Positions 6,341-34,569 of a stretch of 42,822 nt of DNA are shown here, one piece after another. A program made the position numbers and the translations under genes. Each line of letters starts with the position of its first letter. Within the stretch, counting starts at the first letter, position 1. The notes beneath the pieces were generated by a model. It was not told the DNA's origin. It did not search any database and saw only the letters and a program-made list of their open reading frames with translations. This DNA comes from a virus: IMG/VR virus record IMGVR_UViG_3300005613_000131, positions 1 to 42,822 of that record. The stretch is one strand, 5' to 3'.

Positions 6341-6742
6341 ATGAAAGTTACCAATAGAGATGTGTTTGAAGGCAAAAATGCACTCCAAGAATTACTGAGA
6401 TGTAGGCTACCAGTTAAAACAAGTATGGATGTAGCCAAGCTGAGTAGGAAGTTCAATGAAGCCTTAAAAGATATAGATGTGGTTAGAAAAGGTCTAATTG
6501 ACAAATATGGCACTAATTCTGAAAGAGGTGGCAAGGAGGTCAAAGCTGACAGTGAAAACTACCAAAAGTTTATGGAGGAGTTTGACACCTTGTTGGATTT
6601 GGAAGTGGACATAGTAGCTAATAAGGTTAAGCTGCCAGAGAACATTAGTTCTACTTGTGATAAATGCAAGCACAATATGGACAGACCACTAGAGTTGGAA
6701 CCTTGGATTCTTGCCTCATTAGATAAATTTGTGGAGGTGTAA
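6341..6742 (+). CDS. DUF1617-like phage protein
   Basis: 133 residues, ribosome site AAAGGAGG. The N-terminal part (LLRCRLPVKTSMDVAKLSRK, then a helix ending RKGLIDKYG) and the C-terminal segment ending in LELEPWILASLDKF match my memory of the DUF1617 family, small alpha-helical proteins in late operons of tailed phages. A CDKCKHN cysteine pair near residue 104 is unusual. It sits just before the connector-like gene. The molecular role of the family is unknown to me. Confidence 0.45.
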   Translation: MKVTNRDVFEGKNALQELLRCRLPVKTSMDVAKLSRKFNEALKDIDVVRKGLIDKYGTNSERGGKEVKADSENYQKFMEEFDTLLDLEVDIVANKVKLPENISSTCDKCKHNMDRPLELEPWILASLDKFVEV

Positions 6743-12863: not shown

Positions 12864-13163
12864 TCACTTTCTTGTTTTTGTTTTCCATCTCCACCAGGAA
12901 TCTATTATATGGGTAAATTCTTCTCTTAGTTCTACATCAAATACCATTGCTTGTACCAGCCTGTTTTTAATTGTTTGGTAAGTATAGTTTTTGGATTCAA
13001 TGGCGGATTCAATGAAAGTTATTACATTAAATCCTGTATCCAACTCTCTTAACTTTTCATTTACTATTTCCAACGGCAGGCCATGTGTATCCATTAACTC
13101 AAATACATACTTACCATCGAATAATGGCTTATTTACCAACCTTGACTTATATAAATTGTCCAT
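12864..13163 (-). CDS. Hypothetical protein
   Basis: 99 residues, starting on a TAATG overlap with the ERCC4-like gene upstream, with AAGGAAG as ribosome site. It is helical and ends in a basic tail (WWRWKTKTRK). The coupling suggests it works with the nuclease, but no family is recognised. Confidence 0.55.
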   Translation of the reverse strand: MDNLYKSRLVNKPLFDGKYVFELMDTHGLPLEIVNEKLRELDTGFNVITFIESAIESKNYTYQTIKNRLVQAMVFDVELREEFTHIIDSWWRWKTKTRK

Positions 13164-15290: not shown

Positions 15291-15878
15291 TCAATTCTCC
15301 AACTCCAACCTATACACCCACACCCATAGATTATTTATTTTCTCTAGCTGTGGTATAGCAGCATTGCCACCCTCCAAGATAAAGCTCTTCTCTGTCAGTG
15401 GTAGCTGCAACCTCTCTACTCTCACAGGGAAGATGCGGAGGAAGCATCTAGCTACCCATTCGGGCATCATTATGGTTGATTTGATAACCCAAGGATTACC
15501 ATTCTCTTTGATTATCTCCTCCCATTCTTGCTGTGACATACCTGCTTTATAAATAATATCTGCTTTGGCTTCCTCTAGGCTTATTACACCACTCGCTAGA
15601 TGCTCGGATGTATTGATATATTCAGCCCAAGCCTCTTTGACATAGACAACCTCGCCCTCGTGGTAGGGAGGCTTGGCATAAACTATTTTGTCCATATAGT
15701 CCTTGTAATGGAATCCCCATGTGCCGTCGTAAGAAGGAAACGGATTATAGTAACTATCAGGTTCTTGATTGATTTCCCCTAAAGCCTTCCCTGCCCTTCT
15801 AGTTTCAGTCTCTCTGTATTCCTGCAAGACCTTCAATTTGGCTTTCCAGATGTTAGGCTTAAATAACATTCCTTTCAT
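15291..15878 (-). CDS. ASCH-domain phage protein
   Basis: 195 residues, ribosome site AAGGAG. The N-terminus (MKGMLFKPNIWKAKLKVLQE then ETETRR), a central HEGEVVYVKEAW and a late MPEWVARCFLRIFPVRVERL together match phage ASCH-superfamily proteins. ASCH is a beta-barrel related to PUA and is known or predicted to bind RNA. It begins about 20 bases after the 3' closing helix of the structured RNA at 15.9-16.5 kb, so the two share a transcript. Whether the protein acts on that RNA is speculation. Confidence 0.72.
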   Translation of the reverse strand: MKGMLFKPNIWKAKLKVLQEYRETETRRAGKALGEINQEPDSYYNPFPSYDGTWGFHYKDYMDKIVYAKPPYHEGEVVYVKEAWAEYINTSEHLASGVISLEEAKADIIYKAGMSQQEWEEIIKENGNPWVIKSTIMMPEWVARCFLRIFPVRVERLQLPLTEKSFILEGGNAAIPQLEKINNLWVWVYRLELEN

Positions 15879-15899
15879 ATTCGCTCCTTATTCAATTCT

Positions 15900-16495
15900 C
15901 CTTTGGGCTTGCCAGCTCGGTATCCTTCCCCTTTATGCCCGATACTCTTAGGACACTGGCAAGCCCTGACCTGAGACCTACACGCAATCCCTTCTGTATT
16001 ATTTGCCACCGAATCTTCGGAATGTTCGCTGCCGTCTGCACACAGATACGCACAGTCCATCCATTCCTACCTTACCCTCCTCGGCTCAGGTCTGCGATTT
16101 TGACTTGGCTACTGCCCGTTTAAGTCAGGCTTTGAGAAACGTCCTGTAACCAAGCCATCCTCGCAATCCCAGCTAGTGTAGACGGTATCATGTAGCTATT
16201 CATTACGTTAGCACACACCTTATCCGTGCCCTTTCGGGTAGCTAGGACTGTCACTACTGGGAACTAGGGGACTTTCACCCCATAGACAGGGTTGTGGATA
16301 ATCCTACTTAGGCGGAGTTGCACCGCTCCCACTGTCGAGGCTCTACGCTACTTCCTATTTCTAGGTGCTAATCAGCTTTCAGGCGTAGTTATACGGTTCG
16401 CTGCGTCTATATTCCGCCATCCCCAGCAATAACCATATTTAATTATTAAGGTGCTTGGGAGGCCCAGGTGGATAGTCCTGAGCCTCCAGAGGAAT
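15900..16495 (-). ncRNA. Large structured non-coding RNA candidate (~590 nt)
   Basis: No plausible gene lies here, the region is visibly more GC-rich than its surroundings, and it is full of paired helices. Examples in window coordinates: 15905-15915 with 15956-15966 (11 perfect pairs), 15968-15975 with 16085-16092 (8), 16101-16106 with 16122-16127, 16171-16175 with 16193-16197, 16248-16252 with 16285-16289 enclosing 16264-16270 with 16278-16285, 16343-16348 with 16383-16388, and 16458-16468 with 16477-16487 (11 with one G-U). On the minus strand two hairpins are capped by GAAA tetraloops (16229-16238 and 16354-16365). Minus is the likely strand because of these loops and its co-directional genes. 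Size and phage setting recall ROOL or GOLLD RNAs, but I cannot assign a class. Confidence 0.75.
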
Positions 16496-16506
16496 GAATA
16501 TGTATA

Positions 16507-17292
16507 TTATGCTCCATTAACCTTGCTTACTATATTTTGTATTTTATCATAAGTGGGATTATCTATAACAGTACCAACCAATGTAGGAGGCACTGATTCC
16601 TCACAGACATTACACATGAATGTTCCATTTTCCATGTAGGTATGGAGCATCAAATCTGTGCTGTCACCAAGAGAATTAAATCCTGCTCTTTCCTTCTGGT
16701 CAGTTCTAACTTCCTCATACCCACCAGTTTTTGGGTTAGGTCTACTAGCATACACATCCCTAGAGTGGTGAGTTAGAACTAGGTTTTTCTTATGCACCCT
16801 GGCTTGATATAGCAATCCACGCATCCTGATATTTGGTTCTCTATATTCTATTGGCAGCAAGCTGGTTCTAAGCTCTTTGCCACCAACGACATTACCATTT
16901 TCATCTAATTGTAATTCTTGTTTCTCCTGTAGAAAGGCTGTGCAAATAGTTTCCCATAGCAAAGTACCAGTGTCAATTACTCCAGTAGCTATGCCATTAT
17001 CCTTGTTGAGGAAGCCAATATAATCTTGGAGAAATGAATACCAAAACTCTTTCATACCTGTTATTATCTTACTTGGCTTGAAAGTTGGAGTATCACCAAC
17101 TCCAAAATCACCTTGGAATGGAACACTGTATTCCTTATGAGTGATTAGTCCTTCATCAACCTCAGCTTTGAATCTTGGTGCTGCCCTGTCAAAGCCACCT
17201 AAGTCTAGTTCCATGTATAACATTGGCTTAGGAAATGATAGAGCTAATGAAGTCTTACCAGTTTTGTCATTCCCCCAAATACCAACTATCAT
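16507..17292 (-). CDS. Sak4-like / AAA_24 P-loop ATPase
   Basis: 261 residues, ribosome site AAAGGAG. Walker A is GNDKTGKT (7-14) and Walker B is GVIDTG (D107). A histidine pair in LVLTHHSRD (about 174-182) resembles the sensor region. The RecA-like core with almost no N-terminal extension fits the phage AAA_24/Sak4 group, ATP-dependent recombination or single-strand annealing helpers. A late CNVCEE (about 230-235) may bind metal. It lies beside a Cas4/RecB-type nuclease and a possible ssDNA-binding protein, the usual setting for a phage recombination module. The structured RNA follows its stop codon directly. Confidence 0.75.
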   Translation of the reverse strand: MIVGIWGNDKTGKTSLALSFPKPMLYMELDLGGFDRAAPRFKAEVDEGLITHKEYSVPFQGDFGVGDTPTFKPSKIITGMKEFWYSFLQDYIGFLNKDNGIATGVIDTGTLLWETICTAFLQEKQELQLDENGNVVGGKELRTSLLPIEYREPNIRMRGLLYQARVHKKNLVLTHHSRDVYASRPNPKTGGYEEVRTDQKERAGFNSLGDSTDLMLHTYMENGTFMCNVCEESVPPTLVGTVIDNPTYDKIQNIVSKVNGA

Positions 17293-18721: not shown

Positions 18722-19365
18722 TATGCCTCCTTGACATGGAACACACCATTCTCATCCTTGGTAATTCTACCTGTGGAAATCATTGAGGCGAGGAATCCAC
18801 TTTCAGTGTTGTCCAAGATTGAGGTAATGAGTCCACCAGCCTTGATGGTTTCATTCTTAAAAGCCTCCTGGTTAAAGTCAGCCTCAGATTTACCATCAAG
18901 TATCCTTAGAGCTTCATCCAAGGCACTTGGTCCTTTACCAGTACGTTTTGTGTCTCCAGAAGAGGTAGAGATAATCTCCCAACAGTCCCTTGGGGTTTCT
19001 TCACCCTTTGTGGAATCCCACATCATATGGCCAGGTGTCAGTTTACATTCAAGGTATTTGCCAACCAAATCAGGGAAATCCTCATTCTCGGTAAGCAGTT
19101 TAATTCCTGATTCTGCAAATACACCCCATCCACTCTGCTTCCTTTTACTCCTTGGGAATGATAGCTGTAGTATAGGAAACACATAAGACTCACTGGTTTC
19201 AATTATGTCAAGCTCAGTGAATAACAGGTTCACATACTCCTTTGCAGGTGTAATGTTAGTCCTCATCTCGGTATTAAAGCTCTCTAGTCTTCCTTTGAAA
19301 TGTGTTACAGGTATTGCCCTATAACCATCTTCTAATCCTCTAAAACTTGGTGCTGTGTCTTCCAA
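18721..19365 (-). CDS. Possible single-stranded-DNA-binding or recombination accessory protein (TTG start)
   Basis: 214 residues from TTG 19365, which has AAGGAGG six bases upstream. A central beta region (LLFTELDIIETSESYVFPIL ... KYLECKLTPGHMMWD) has the look of an OB fold, followed by a linker and a mixed C-terminal region ending in a short beta element. It lies first in the run with the Cas4-like nuclease and Sak4-like ATPase. The SSB assignment rests on context and fold impression only. Confidence 0.45.
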   Translation of the reverse strand: MEDTAPSFRGLEDGYRAIPVTHFKGRLESFNTEMRTNITPAKEYVNLLFTELDIIETSESYVFPILQLSFPRSKRKQSGWGVFAESGIKLLTENEDFPDLVGKYLECKLTPGHMMWDSTKGEETPRDCWEIISTSSGDTKRTGKGPSALDEALRILDGKSEADFNQEAFKNETIKAGGLITSILDNTESGFLASMISTGRITKDENGVFHVKEA

Positions 19366-32908: not shown

Positions 32909-34569
32909 GTACAGAAGTTAAGAATTGCATCAACAAATGTAATGAACTAAAAGACTTTTGGAAGGAACGCAACAAGCAATTCAAGGTTTGGTATGACCTT
33001 CTGTTGATGAAAGACCAGCTAAAGCAAGAAGATATGGAAACTGTTGTAACCAATGACCCTAGGACTGGGTATAACCTAGCTTTACATCTACTAACCAGTG
33101 CCACCATGTCACATAAGATTTCCACTGAAGGTTTGGAAAAACCAGAAATTGTTGATACCAGCTATCTGGAAACCTTCATAGAGCGTAGGTGGCATAACAT
33201 TGAAAAAGAAGAAGCTAGGAAAGGTAAGCAGTCATGGCTCCGTAGAGTTCTAGAGTTAATGCTGGCTACTGGTTGGTATTCAGTATTTGTAGGTGCTGGA
33301 GACGATTACCTATCTGCTGAGATATGGCATCCAGCTAATGTATTCCCAGAATATGGAGAAAATGGTTTAGAGGCTTGTGCCCATATATATAGGTTGAAAC
33401 CAATAGCTGCTGTAAGGAAGGCGAAGGTATATAATATAACATTTCCATTCACACCTAAGTCAGATGTAATTGTATATAATCTATTCCAGCTAGATGAGGA
33501 TGGTGATGTAACCAATACCCTAGTTATTGGTGATAAACTTGCTAGACCTAAATCAAAGCTGGTTAGTGAACAAGCTTCAAAAGTTATACCAGTGTTAGTA
33601 TCTCCAGTTAGTGGCCTCCCAGATAGTGGTGTGATAATATCCGATGATTCATGGCAAAAGAACTTTGGTGAATCCATTGTTGCGGTAAATGAGCATGAGT
33701 TTACCAACAATAACAAAATGCAGAGTTATATCCAGCAGTTGGTAAGAGACTCATCCAACCCACGTTGGTTTGAAAAATCCCGCAGCAAATCTGGTATATT
33801 GAAGTCTGAAACCATTTTCAAGAGAGGTGCTATATTCCGAGGCACACCAGAGGAAGATATTATGCCTTTACCTACAGTACCTATACCAGTAGAGATTAGG
33901 ACAATTCTAATGGATAATGCCAATCGCATACAGCGTGGTTTGTTTCCATGGTCTTTGCATGGTAATATCCAACAGCAAATGTCTGGCTATTTGGCTTCCC
34001 AGATAAACTCAGCAGCTTTGGGTGTATTGACTCCATATAGCTTGGGGTTAAGGACCTTGCTATCCAGTGTAGATAACTTTTGGCTGCATGAGACACTGGA
34101 GAGGAATCTACACCCATATGGCTTTAAGAAACCTGATAATCTACCAAAGGATATTGAGTTTGAAATCCAACATGAGATGGAAATTCCAGGTAGCACAGTG
34201 CAGAGAGCCACAGTAGCCAGGATGCTTAACCCAACATTCAAACTCAGCTTCCCAAGGGTTATTGATATGTTATTCCCTGAGATAAAAGATTCCATTAGAG
34301 AACAAGCTACGGTGAATAAAGATGAAGCTATGATGGGTATAGTGGCTCAGACCATAGCACAGATATTGGCTTACAGACAGGAAGCTAAATTTGCCAAAGA
34401 TGCTGGTGATTCTGCCACAGCTAGTTTATTCAATACCGCAGCCGATACCTTGCAATCCCAATTAGGTGTTGCTGGACAGCAACAGCCAACTCAAGGTCAG
34501 ATGCCTGGTAGGATGCAACAGTTTCAACCAAAGGAAGAATATACTCCTGAGGAATTTAGAGGTGTGTAA
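32905..34569 (+). CDS. Portal protein
   Basis: 554 residues, AGGAGG before ATG. Follows the terminase and precedes capsid genes, as portals do. Length and content fit: an N-terminal alpha/beta wing, LRRVLELMLATGWYSVFVGA and a WHPANVFPEYG beta turn (about 128-156), a long helix region near residues 345-400 (HGNIQQQMSGYLASQINSAA), and a Gln-rich, disordered C-terminus. It forms the ring through which DNA enters the head. Identified by context and fold pattern. Stop overlaps the next ATG (TAATG). Confidence 0.82.
   Translation: MSTEVKNCINKCNELKDFWKERNKQFKVWYDLLLMKDQLKQEDMETVVTNDPRTGYNLALHLLTSATMSHKISTEGLEKPEIVDTSYLETFIERRWHNIEKEEARKGKQSWLRRVLELMLATGWYSVFVGAGDDYLSAEIWHPANVFPEYGENGLEACAHIYRLKPIAAVRKAKVYNITFPFTPKSDVIVYNLFQLDEDGDVTNTLVIGDKLARPKSKLVSEQASKVIPVLVSPVSGLPDSGVIISDDSWQKNFGESIVAVNEHEFTNNNKMQSYIQQLVRDSSNPRWFEKSRSKSGILKSETIFKRGAIFRGTPEEDIMPLPTVPIPVEIRTILMDNANRIQRGLFPWSLHGNIQQQMSGYLASQINSAALGVLTPYSLGLRTLLSSVDNFWLHETLERNLHPYGFKKPDNLPKDIEFEIQHEMEIPGSTVQRATVARMLNPTFKLSFPRVIDMLFPEIKDSIREQATVNKDEAMMGIVAQTIAQILAYRQEAKFAKDAGDSATASLFNTAADTLQSQLGVAGQQQPTQGQMPGRMQQFQPKEEYTPEEFRGV

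Follow-up and report, generated by a model that had tools for sequence, protein, structure and literature searches.

What is carried in a long gap between two genes of a phage operon, if not a protein? The DNA analysed here (hereafter the window) is a virus record of 42.8 kb (42,822 nucleotides), which contains the genes of a family-A DNA polymerase, a methyltransferase, a Sak4-like protein, a terminase and a major head protein, and on its minus strand ~630 gene-free bases separate the Sak4-like gene from the next gene. The initial annotation, made from the sequence alone, placed in this gap a large structured RNA of ROOL/GOLLD size, which could be either a new class or a divergent member. We have therefore asked whether the stretch folds, whether its fold is kept in other phages, and to which known RNAs, if any, it is related.

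A gene-free stretch that folds

From the Sak4-like gene to the ORF at 15291-15878, none of the reading frames is conserved, and the lone ORF of 61 aa in the gap (15875-16060, minus strand) is without counterpart in relatives (tblastn, best E=1.2), so that the stretch is gene-free as annotated. Its GC content is 0.48-0.51 vs 0.35-0.45 in the flanks, in agreement with the higher GC noted initially, and no promoter or terminator was recognised around it on its own strand. The individual helices are also as first described: the stem GGGCTTGCCAG/CTGGCAAGCCC is a perfect 11 bp, the stem GGAGGCTCAGG/CCTGGGCCTCC has 11 bp with one G-U, and two GAAA hairpins lie on the minus strand (CCCGAAAGGG and GGGG-TGAAAGT-CCCC; see the table). 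The thermodynamic fold that the annotation had proposed as a check gave an MFE of -217.3 (z=-3.3), and none of 100 shuffles was as low. Furthermore, the stem-chain score of the stretch is 47, whereas shuffles had a mean of 10.3 and a maximum of 40.6, and 0 of 3000 reached 47. In a blind scan for chained stems through 777 kb of the window and related phage DNA on both strands, the stretch ranked first (47.0 vs a shuffle maximum of 36.6), and the next ranks were taken by homologous regions of other phages.

With refined coordinates, the folded region comprises, entirely on the minus strand, an array at 15905-16433 and a hairpin, H, at 16458-16487. In the direction in which the early operon is read, five helix-closed modules make up the array in the order M1-M2-MB-M3-M4, with 0-1 nt between neighbours.

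Table. Features of the array and its neighbours in the window
Feature	Position	Strand	Length	Sequence or structure	Basis or remark
AAA_24 / Sak4-like ssDNA annealing protein gene	16507-17292	-			upstream neighbour; phrog_124 E=5.8e-6, Pfam AAA_24 E=2.9e-6
Hairpin H	16458-16487	-		11 bp with one G-U	directly after the Sak4 stop codon
M1	16250-16433	-	184 nt	tRNA-like; long closing helix GUUAUUGCUGGGGA/UUCCCAGUAGUGAC	fold
tRNA(Leu)-type D-arm	16403-16419	-		UGGCGGAAUAUAGACGC	directly inside the M1 closing helix
T-arm-like hairpin	16267-16281	-		GGGG-UGAAAGU-CCCC, 4 bp	two nt before the M1 3' closing strand
M2	16166-16248	-	83 nt	three-way junction P1/P2/P3 plus pseudoknot	covariance model R1, covariation
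P2 hairpin of M2	16229-16238	-		CCCGAAAGGG	kept in most M2 modules
MB	16093-16165	-	73 nt	UGCGA..UGGCUUGGUUAC/GUAGCCAAGUCA..UCGCA	stem scan; L002 homologue CCCUGCGAGGCUUGG/CCAAGCCAGCAGGG
M3	15968-16092	-	125 nt	GACCUGAG/CUCAGGUC	stem and order
M4	15905-15966	-	62 nt	GGGCUUGCCAG/CUGGCAAGCCC	perfect 11-bp stem; L002 homologue
Gene of protein of unknown function, phrog_874	15291-15878	-			downstream neighbour; E=8.5e-16

Hairpin H recurs in the related locus L003 as GGGAGGCUCAGAU/AUCUGGGCCUCCC, with a compensatory change from G-C to A-U; as it has no U-run, it is not a classical terminator. In M1, the core of the closing stem, UUGCUGG, is common to the M1 modules of other arrays, and the stem covaries across 22 phages, in a test that leans towards the stem because these sequences were gathered with a complementarity filter. 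The M1 of the window is a long variant, which has the UUGCUGG core and the leader in common with other M1 modules and differs in the rest. The M3 stem and order are kept in L002, L093, L094, L098-L100, L102 and L109, and the M3 homologues have CCUGAG/CUCAGG and the order in common; the M3 model, R2, is weak on the M3 of the window (E=0.23, with two unrelated places ranking above it), and thus the homology of the latter rests on the stem, the order and L002. The assignments of M4 and MB are based on L002 and the fold.

Covariation of M2 and its distribution in other phages

M2 is the best-defined module, and its fold is demonstrated by 36 modules that were anchored on sequence, not on complementarity. 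The inner Y-R pair of P1 is standard in 36/36 of them vs 29.0 with shuffled partners, the outer pair o1 in 36/36 vs 27.4, and o3 in 26 vs 13.6, while P3 covaries in the correct register only. On an alignment of 23 sequences, the M2 structure scored 0.211 vs 0.096; none of 500 shuffles reached this score, and slid controls stayed at or below 0.067. The five-base stretch that separates P3 from P1 complements the P3 loop, forming a pseudoknot whose partner pairs over at least 4 bp in 31/37 modules (P=0.0005; P=0.001 for the members departing from CUAC alone) and in the window over 4 bp, GUGU/ACAC. The relatedness of the sequences inflates these covariation tests somewhat; the changes still recur in many combinations. 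On the operon strand, P1 shows 16 G-U vs 3 A-C cells, and because of this excess the operon strand is taken as the sense strand.

A covariance model of M2, R1, was built from 23 other phages with the window left out, and it matched the window at the position of M2 with E=1.7e-10 (41 bits). The matched module has a P1 stem of the CCAGCYA/URGCUGG type, a GNRA hairpin as P2, P3, and the pseudoknot from the P3 loop to J3/1. In total R1 found ~35 contigs, 23 of which are its training sequences. A second match in the window (33155-33279, plus strand, E=4.5e-4) was rejected as a false positive, since it reflects conserved codons of a coding gene that is also present in G425; matches of R1 near 1e-4 are therefore not safe. 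R1 gave no match in 398 genomes from the phylum to which the Thiothrix MAG belongs, an uninformative result. A long subtype of M2 was also seen (L003:4870-5120, L073 minus strand near 19070-19340, and L128:5600-5830), with strong conservation of primary sequence, CCGAUAGGGAGUUG..AGAAAACCUAUCUAAGCC..UUUAGGAACUNCAC..GACAGGG, pointing to a conserved core with an active or binding role.

Relatives of the array were reached by several routes. A search with the Sak4-like protein led to two close relatives, and an alignment of the exonuclease to 53 loci, many of them with arrays. A first motif scan with GGCTACTGGCTGGGA gave mostly chance matches, two already-known loci excepted; a scan for the M2 5' arm plus the P2 hairpin added ~20 further arrays, its remaining hits being due to chance as the closing stem is missing. 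Altogether, related arrays occur in ~35 contigs of uncultured phages. L002 (contig 3300018080_000293) has the same five modules as the window, and L003 (3300033149_001104) and G003 (3300008516_000059) have a shorter form of ~270 nt built on M2; the number of modules (1-5), their order and their genomic place differ between phages, and single modules of ~80 nt exist. In most phages with an exonuclease-Sak4-HHH-methyltransferase-polA block, the array precedes the exonuclease gene; in the window, G001, G002, G003 and L120 it lies between the Sak4 and HHH genes, and in phages without this block it is placed elsewhere. Wherever the core genes were mapped, the array strand is the block strand. In L178 (4428-4568, minus strand), a lone M2 stands behind TTGACA-17-TATGAT, an 11/12 promoter match, and is followed by a terminator-like hairpin. 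Among cultured phage records, there was no homologue of the array by blastn and none by tblastn of the neighbouring proteins.

Two further observations are worth describing here. The last module is nearly identical in L098:5465-5523, L109:4870-4930 and L121:105-165, where the other modules differ, which looks like module exchange. In L185 (3050-3640, minus strand), M2 is followed by a hairpin with a weak likeness to abiF RNA (E=0.026, short of the gathering threshold) and then by a tRNA(Leu)-like unit.

These results show that the array is real and that its structure is under selection. Covarying pairs among homologues, the absence of which would have spoken against the initial reading, were found by comparison with shuffled and slid controls in the helices and the pseudoknot of M2, and the conserved coding signal that would have spoken against an RNA was looked for and not found, there being no conserved reading frame. 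Covariation of homologues, the match of an independent covariance model and the absence of a coding signal together support the reading of the stretch as a large structured RNA that is encoded in the early operon and falls in no known family.

tRNA-like modules and possible functions

Some of the modules resemble parts of tRNAs. The D-arm motif TGGCGGAA(N2-8)AGACG has six matches in 1.6 Mb searched on both strands, and all six lie in or beside arrays (the window, L093, L116, L120, L131 and L185); by eye, these D-arms come after an acceptor-like helix and UG, the arrangement of tRNA(Leu). T-arm-like hairpins number 5 vs 0.9 expected, and three of them abut the 3' closing strand (L093, L101 and L176); in L093 and L185, a T-arm with a seven-base T-loop was seen by eye directly before the 3' strand. 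The complete layout of acceptor-like helix, UG plus D-arm and T-arm is clear by sequence in L093 and L185; in the window the D-arm is clear, and the T-arm-like hairpin, of 4 bp, is set two nt off the 3' strand. In none of these units was a true tRNA called or an anticodon arm recognisable, and without a recognisable anticodon arm the modules cannot decode. ARAGORN found 0 tRNAs in the window, and RF00005 was not reported in the Rfam scans. The tRNA-like modules are a subset; M2 has no tRNA topology.

Several tRNA-related features were also noted nearby or in other phages. True tRNA genes are present in 4/26 other phage records searched, either related or array-bearing; the closest relative of the window, G001, has a genuine tRNA-Tyr (6605-6691, plus strand) ~650 nt downstream of its array. 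The array module at L101:5570-5720, with GAGGGUUCAAGUCCCUC as a canonical T-arm and CCA encoded at its end, is not called as a tRNA. In the operon of the window, a protein of 99 aa (12864-13163, minus strand) carries an alanyl-tRNA-synthetase-like motif, FELMDTHGLPLEI (Pfam tRNA-synt_2c E=6.8e-6, under the curated cut-off). It was considered as a partner of the array and set aside, having no homologue in the relatives examined, and the presence of such a tRNA-related gene in the same operon as a tRNA-like RNA array may be coincidental.

From these observations, we infer that the array would be part of the operon transcript, some phages using a separate promoter for it, and that its modules may act in trans as stable small RNAs. 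The fixed strand, the varying neighbours and module number, and the M2 that stands alone in L178 argue for action in trans over control of a single gene, and the stable stems, the fast-changing interiors and the tRNA-like parts suggest mimicry of tRNA or other host RNAs. The modules would then be mimics that bind host factors for tRNA handling or translation; candidate targets are RNase P, RNase Z, the CCA-adding enzyme, translation factors and a tRNA-directed defence nuclease, with the conserved stems possibly serving as a docking scaffold and the interiors tracking the host's version of the target. We thus tentatively favour, at somewhat less than even chances, a cassette of small RNAs that act in trans, some of them mimicking tRNA, as probable decoys for tRNA-handling host factors. 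Counted against this reading are that only some modules are tRNA-like, the best-defined one, M2, not being among them, that true tRNA genes are few in the records searched (4/26, and none in the window), and that the array of the window has no recognisable promoter or terminator, which leaves room for co-transcription and a role in cis.

The main rival is such a cis role, in which the array would be an element of the early mRNA for its processing or stability (tRNA-like punctuation cut by RNase P/Z, an exonuclease block or an antiterminator) and would set the levels of the flanking genes. The array does lie on the operon strand wherever mapped, and in the window it exactly fills the gap between two genes and lacks signals of its own; however, the flanking genes vary between phages (exonuclease, HHH protein, phrog_874 and others), the module number ranges from 1 to 5, and the lone M2 copy of L178 follows a promoter match, so that we regard this role as possible and rather unlikely. 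A further possibility is an ornate ROOL/GOLLD-like RNA that forms multimers or cages made of RNA only. Being phage-borne, ~530 nt long and dense in helices, with a pseudoknot and a function unknown as for ROOL/GOLLD (PMC12286853), the array fits this picture; the lack of a covariance-model match even at E<=10, the short forms of L003 and G003, the single modules and a position away from tRNA islands make such an assembly improbable.

A decayed tRNA gene cluster with no present function could also leave D- and T-arms of the tRNA(Leu) type that lack anticodon arms, an explanation that we consider very improbable, as it is contradicted by covarying helices and a pseudoknot kept across dozens of phages. 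Least credible is a protein-coding or DNA-level element, such as an origin or a recombination site: the array sits among replication and recombination genes, as such an element might, and yet G-U is tolerated on one strand only, the orientation is fixed and no reading frame is conserved, which largely contradicts this reading.

Beyond the favoured cassette of trans-acting RNAs, it is conceivable, albeit doubtful, that the family represents a new class of phage RNA cassettes, in which interchangeable RNAs made of tRNA parts and pseudoknotted junctions have diversified to bind or decoy tRNA-related or defence factors of the host; if so, it would parallel, at the level of RNA, the gene islands that serve anti-defence. 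Should the modules indeed mimic tRNA, phages would carry RNA decoys against tRNA-based control or defence by the host. What large structured RNAs do for phages is a long-standing question, and the array family is separable into small domains with a covariation-supported fold, each of which can be made, probed and tested alone.

Comparison with known RNAs

An Rfam scan of the window reported no family above the gathering threshold. The models of ROOL (RF03087), GOLLD and HEARO, which had been named for comparison, were run, and in a permissive scan of the region none of them was listed up to E=10; group II introns were likewise unmatched, and the GAAA tetraloop-receptor motif (CCUAAG..UAUGG) was not enriched. 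The fold is moreover a chain of separable modules. An attribution to the ROOL/GOLLD kind is thus not supported; of the two possibilities raised initially, that of an unclassified RNA in no known family is supported. No description of the array family was found in the literature searched, of which coverage is partial. The array family is a previously unclassified RNA family of uncultured tailed phages.

ROOL and GOLLD, large RNAs of phages whose function is unknown, are frequently located close to tRNA islands, and tRNAs can occur within the linkers of GOLLD (PMC12286853). Like them, the array is phage-borne, large and intricately folded, and some of its modules are tRNA-like; unlike them, it is composed of tandem independent modules in variable number, with no match in sequence or structure and no tRNA island. 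Many members of GOLLD exceed 800 nt and have a universally conserved 3' region, whereas the array has ~530 nt and a 3' module that is not conserved family-wide. Clusters of compact RNA units on an early transcript are also formed by phage tRNA arrays, among them the stable RNAs C and D of T4; in contrast, the units described here are not decodable tRNAs and M2 is a pseudoknotted three-way junction. The tRNA-like structures (TLS) of viruses stand at the ends of RNA-virus genomes and share with our modules the mimicry of acceptor, D- and T-arms without an anticodon arm, here in arrays of DNA phages. Processive antitermination RNAs such as HK022 put and EAR are structured RNAs inside a phage or bacterial operon; unlike these, the array is mid-operon, variable in place and without an Rfam sequence match. 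The array is best filed as a new family, a modular form of large structured phage RNA.
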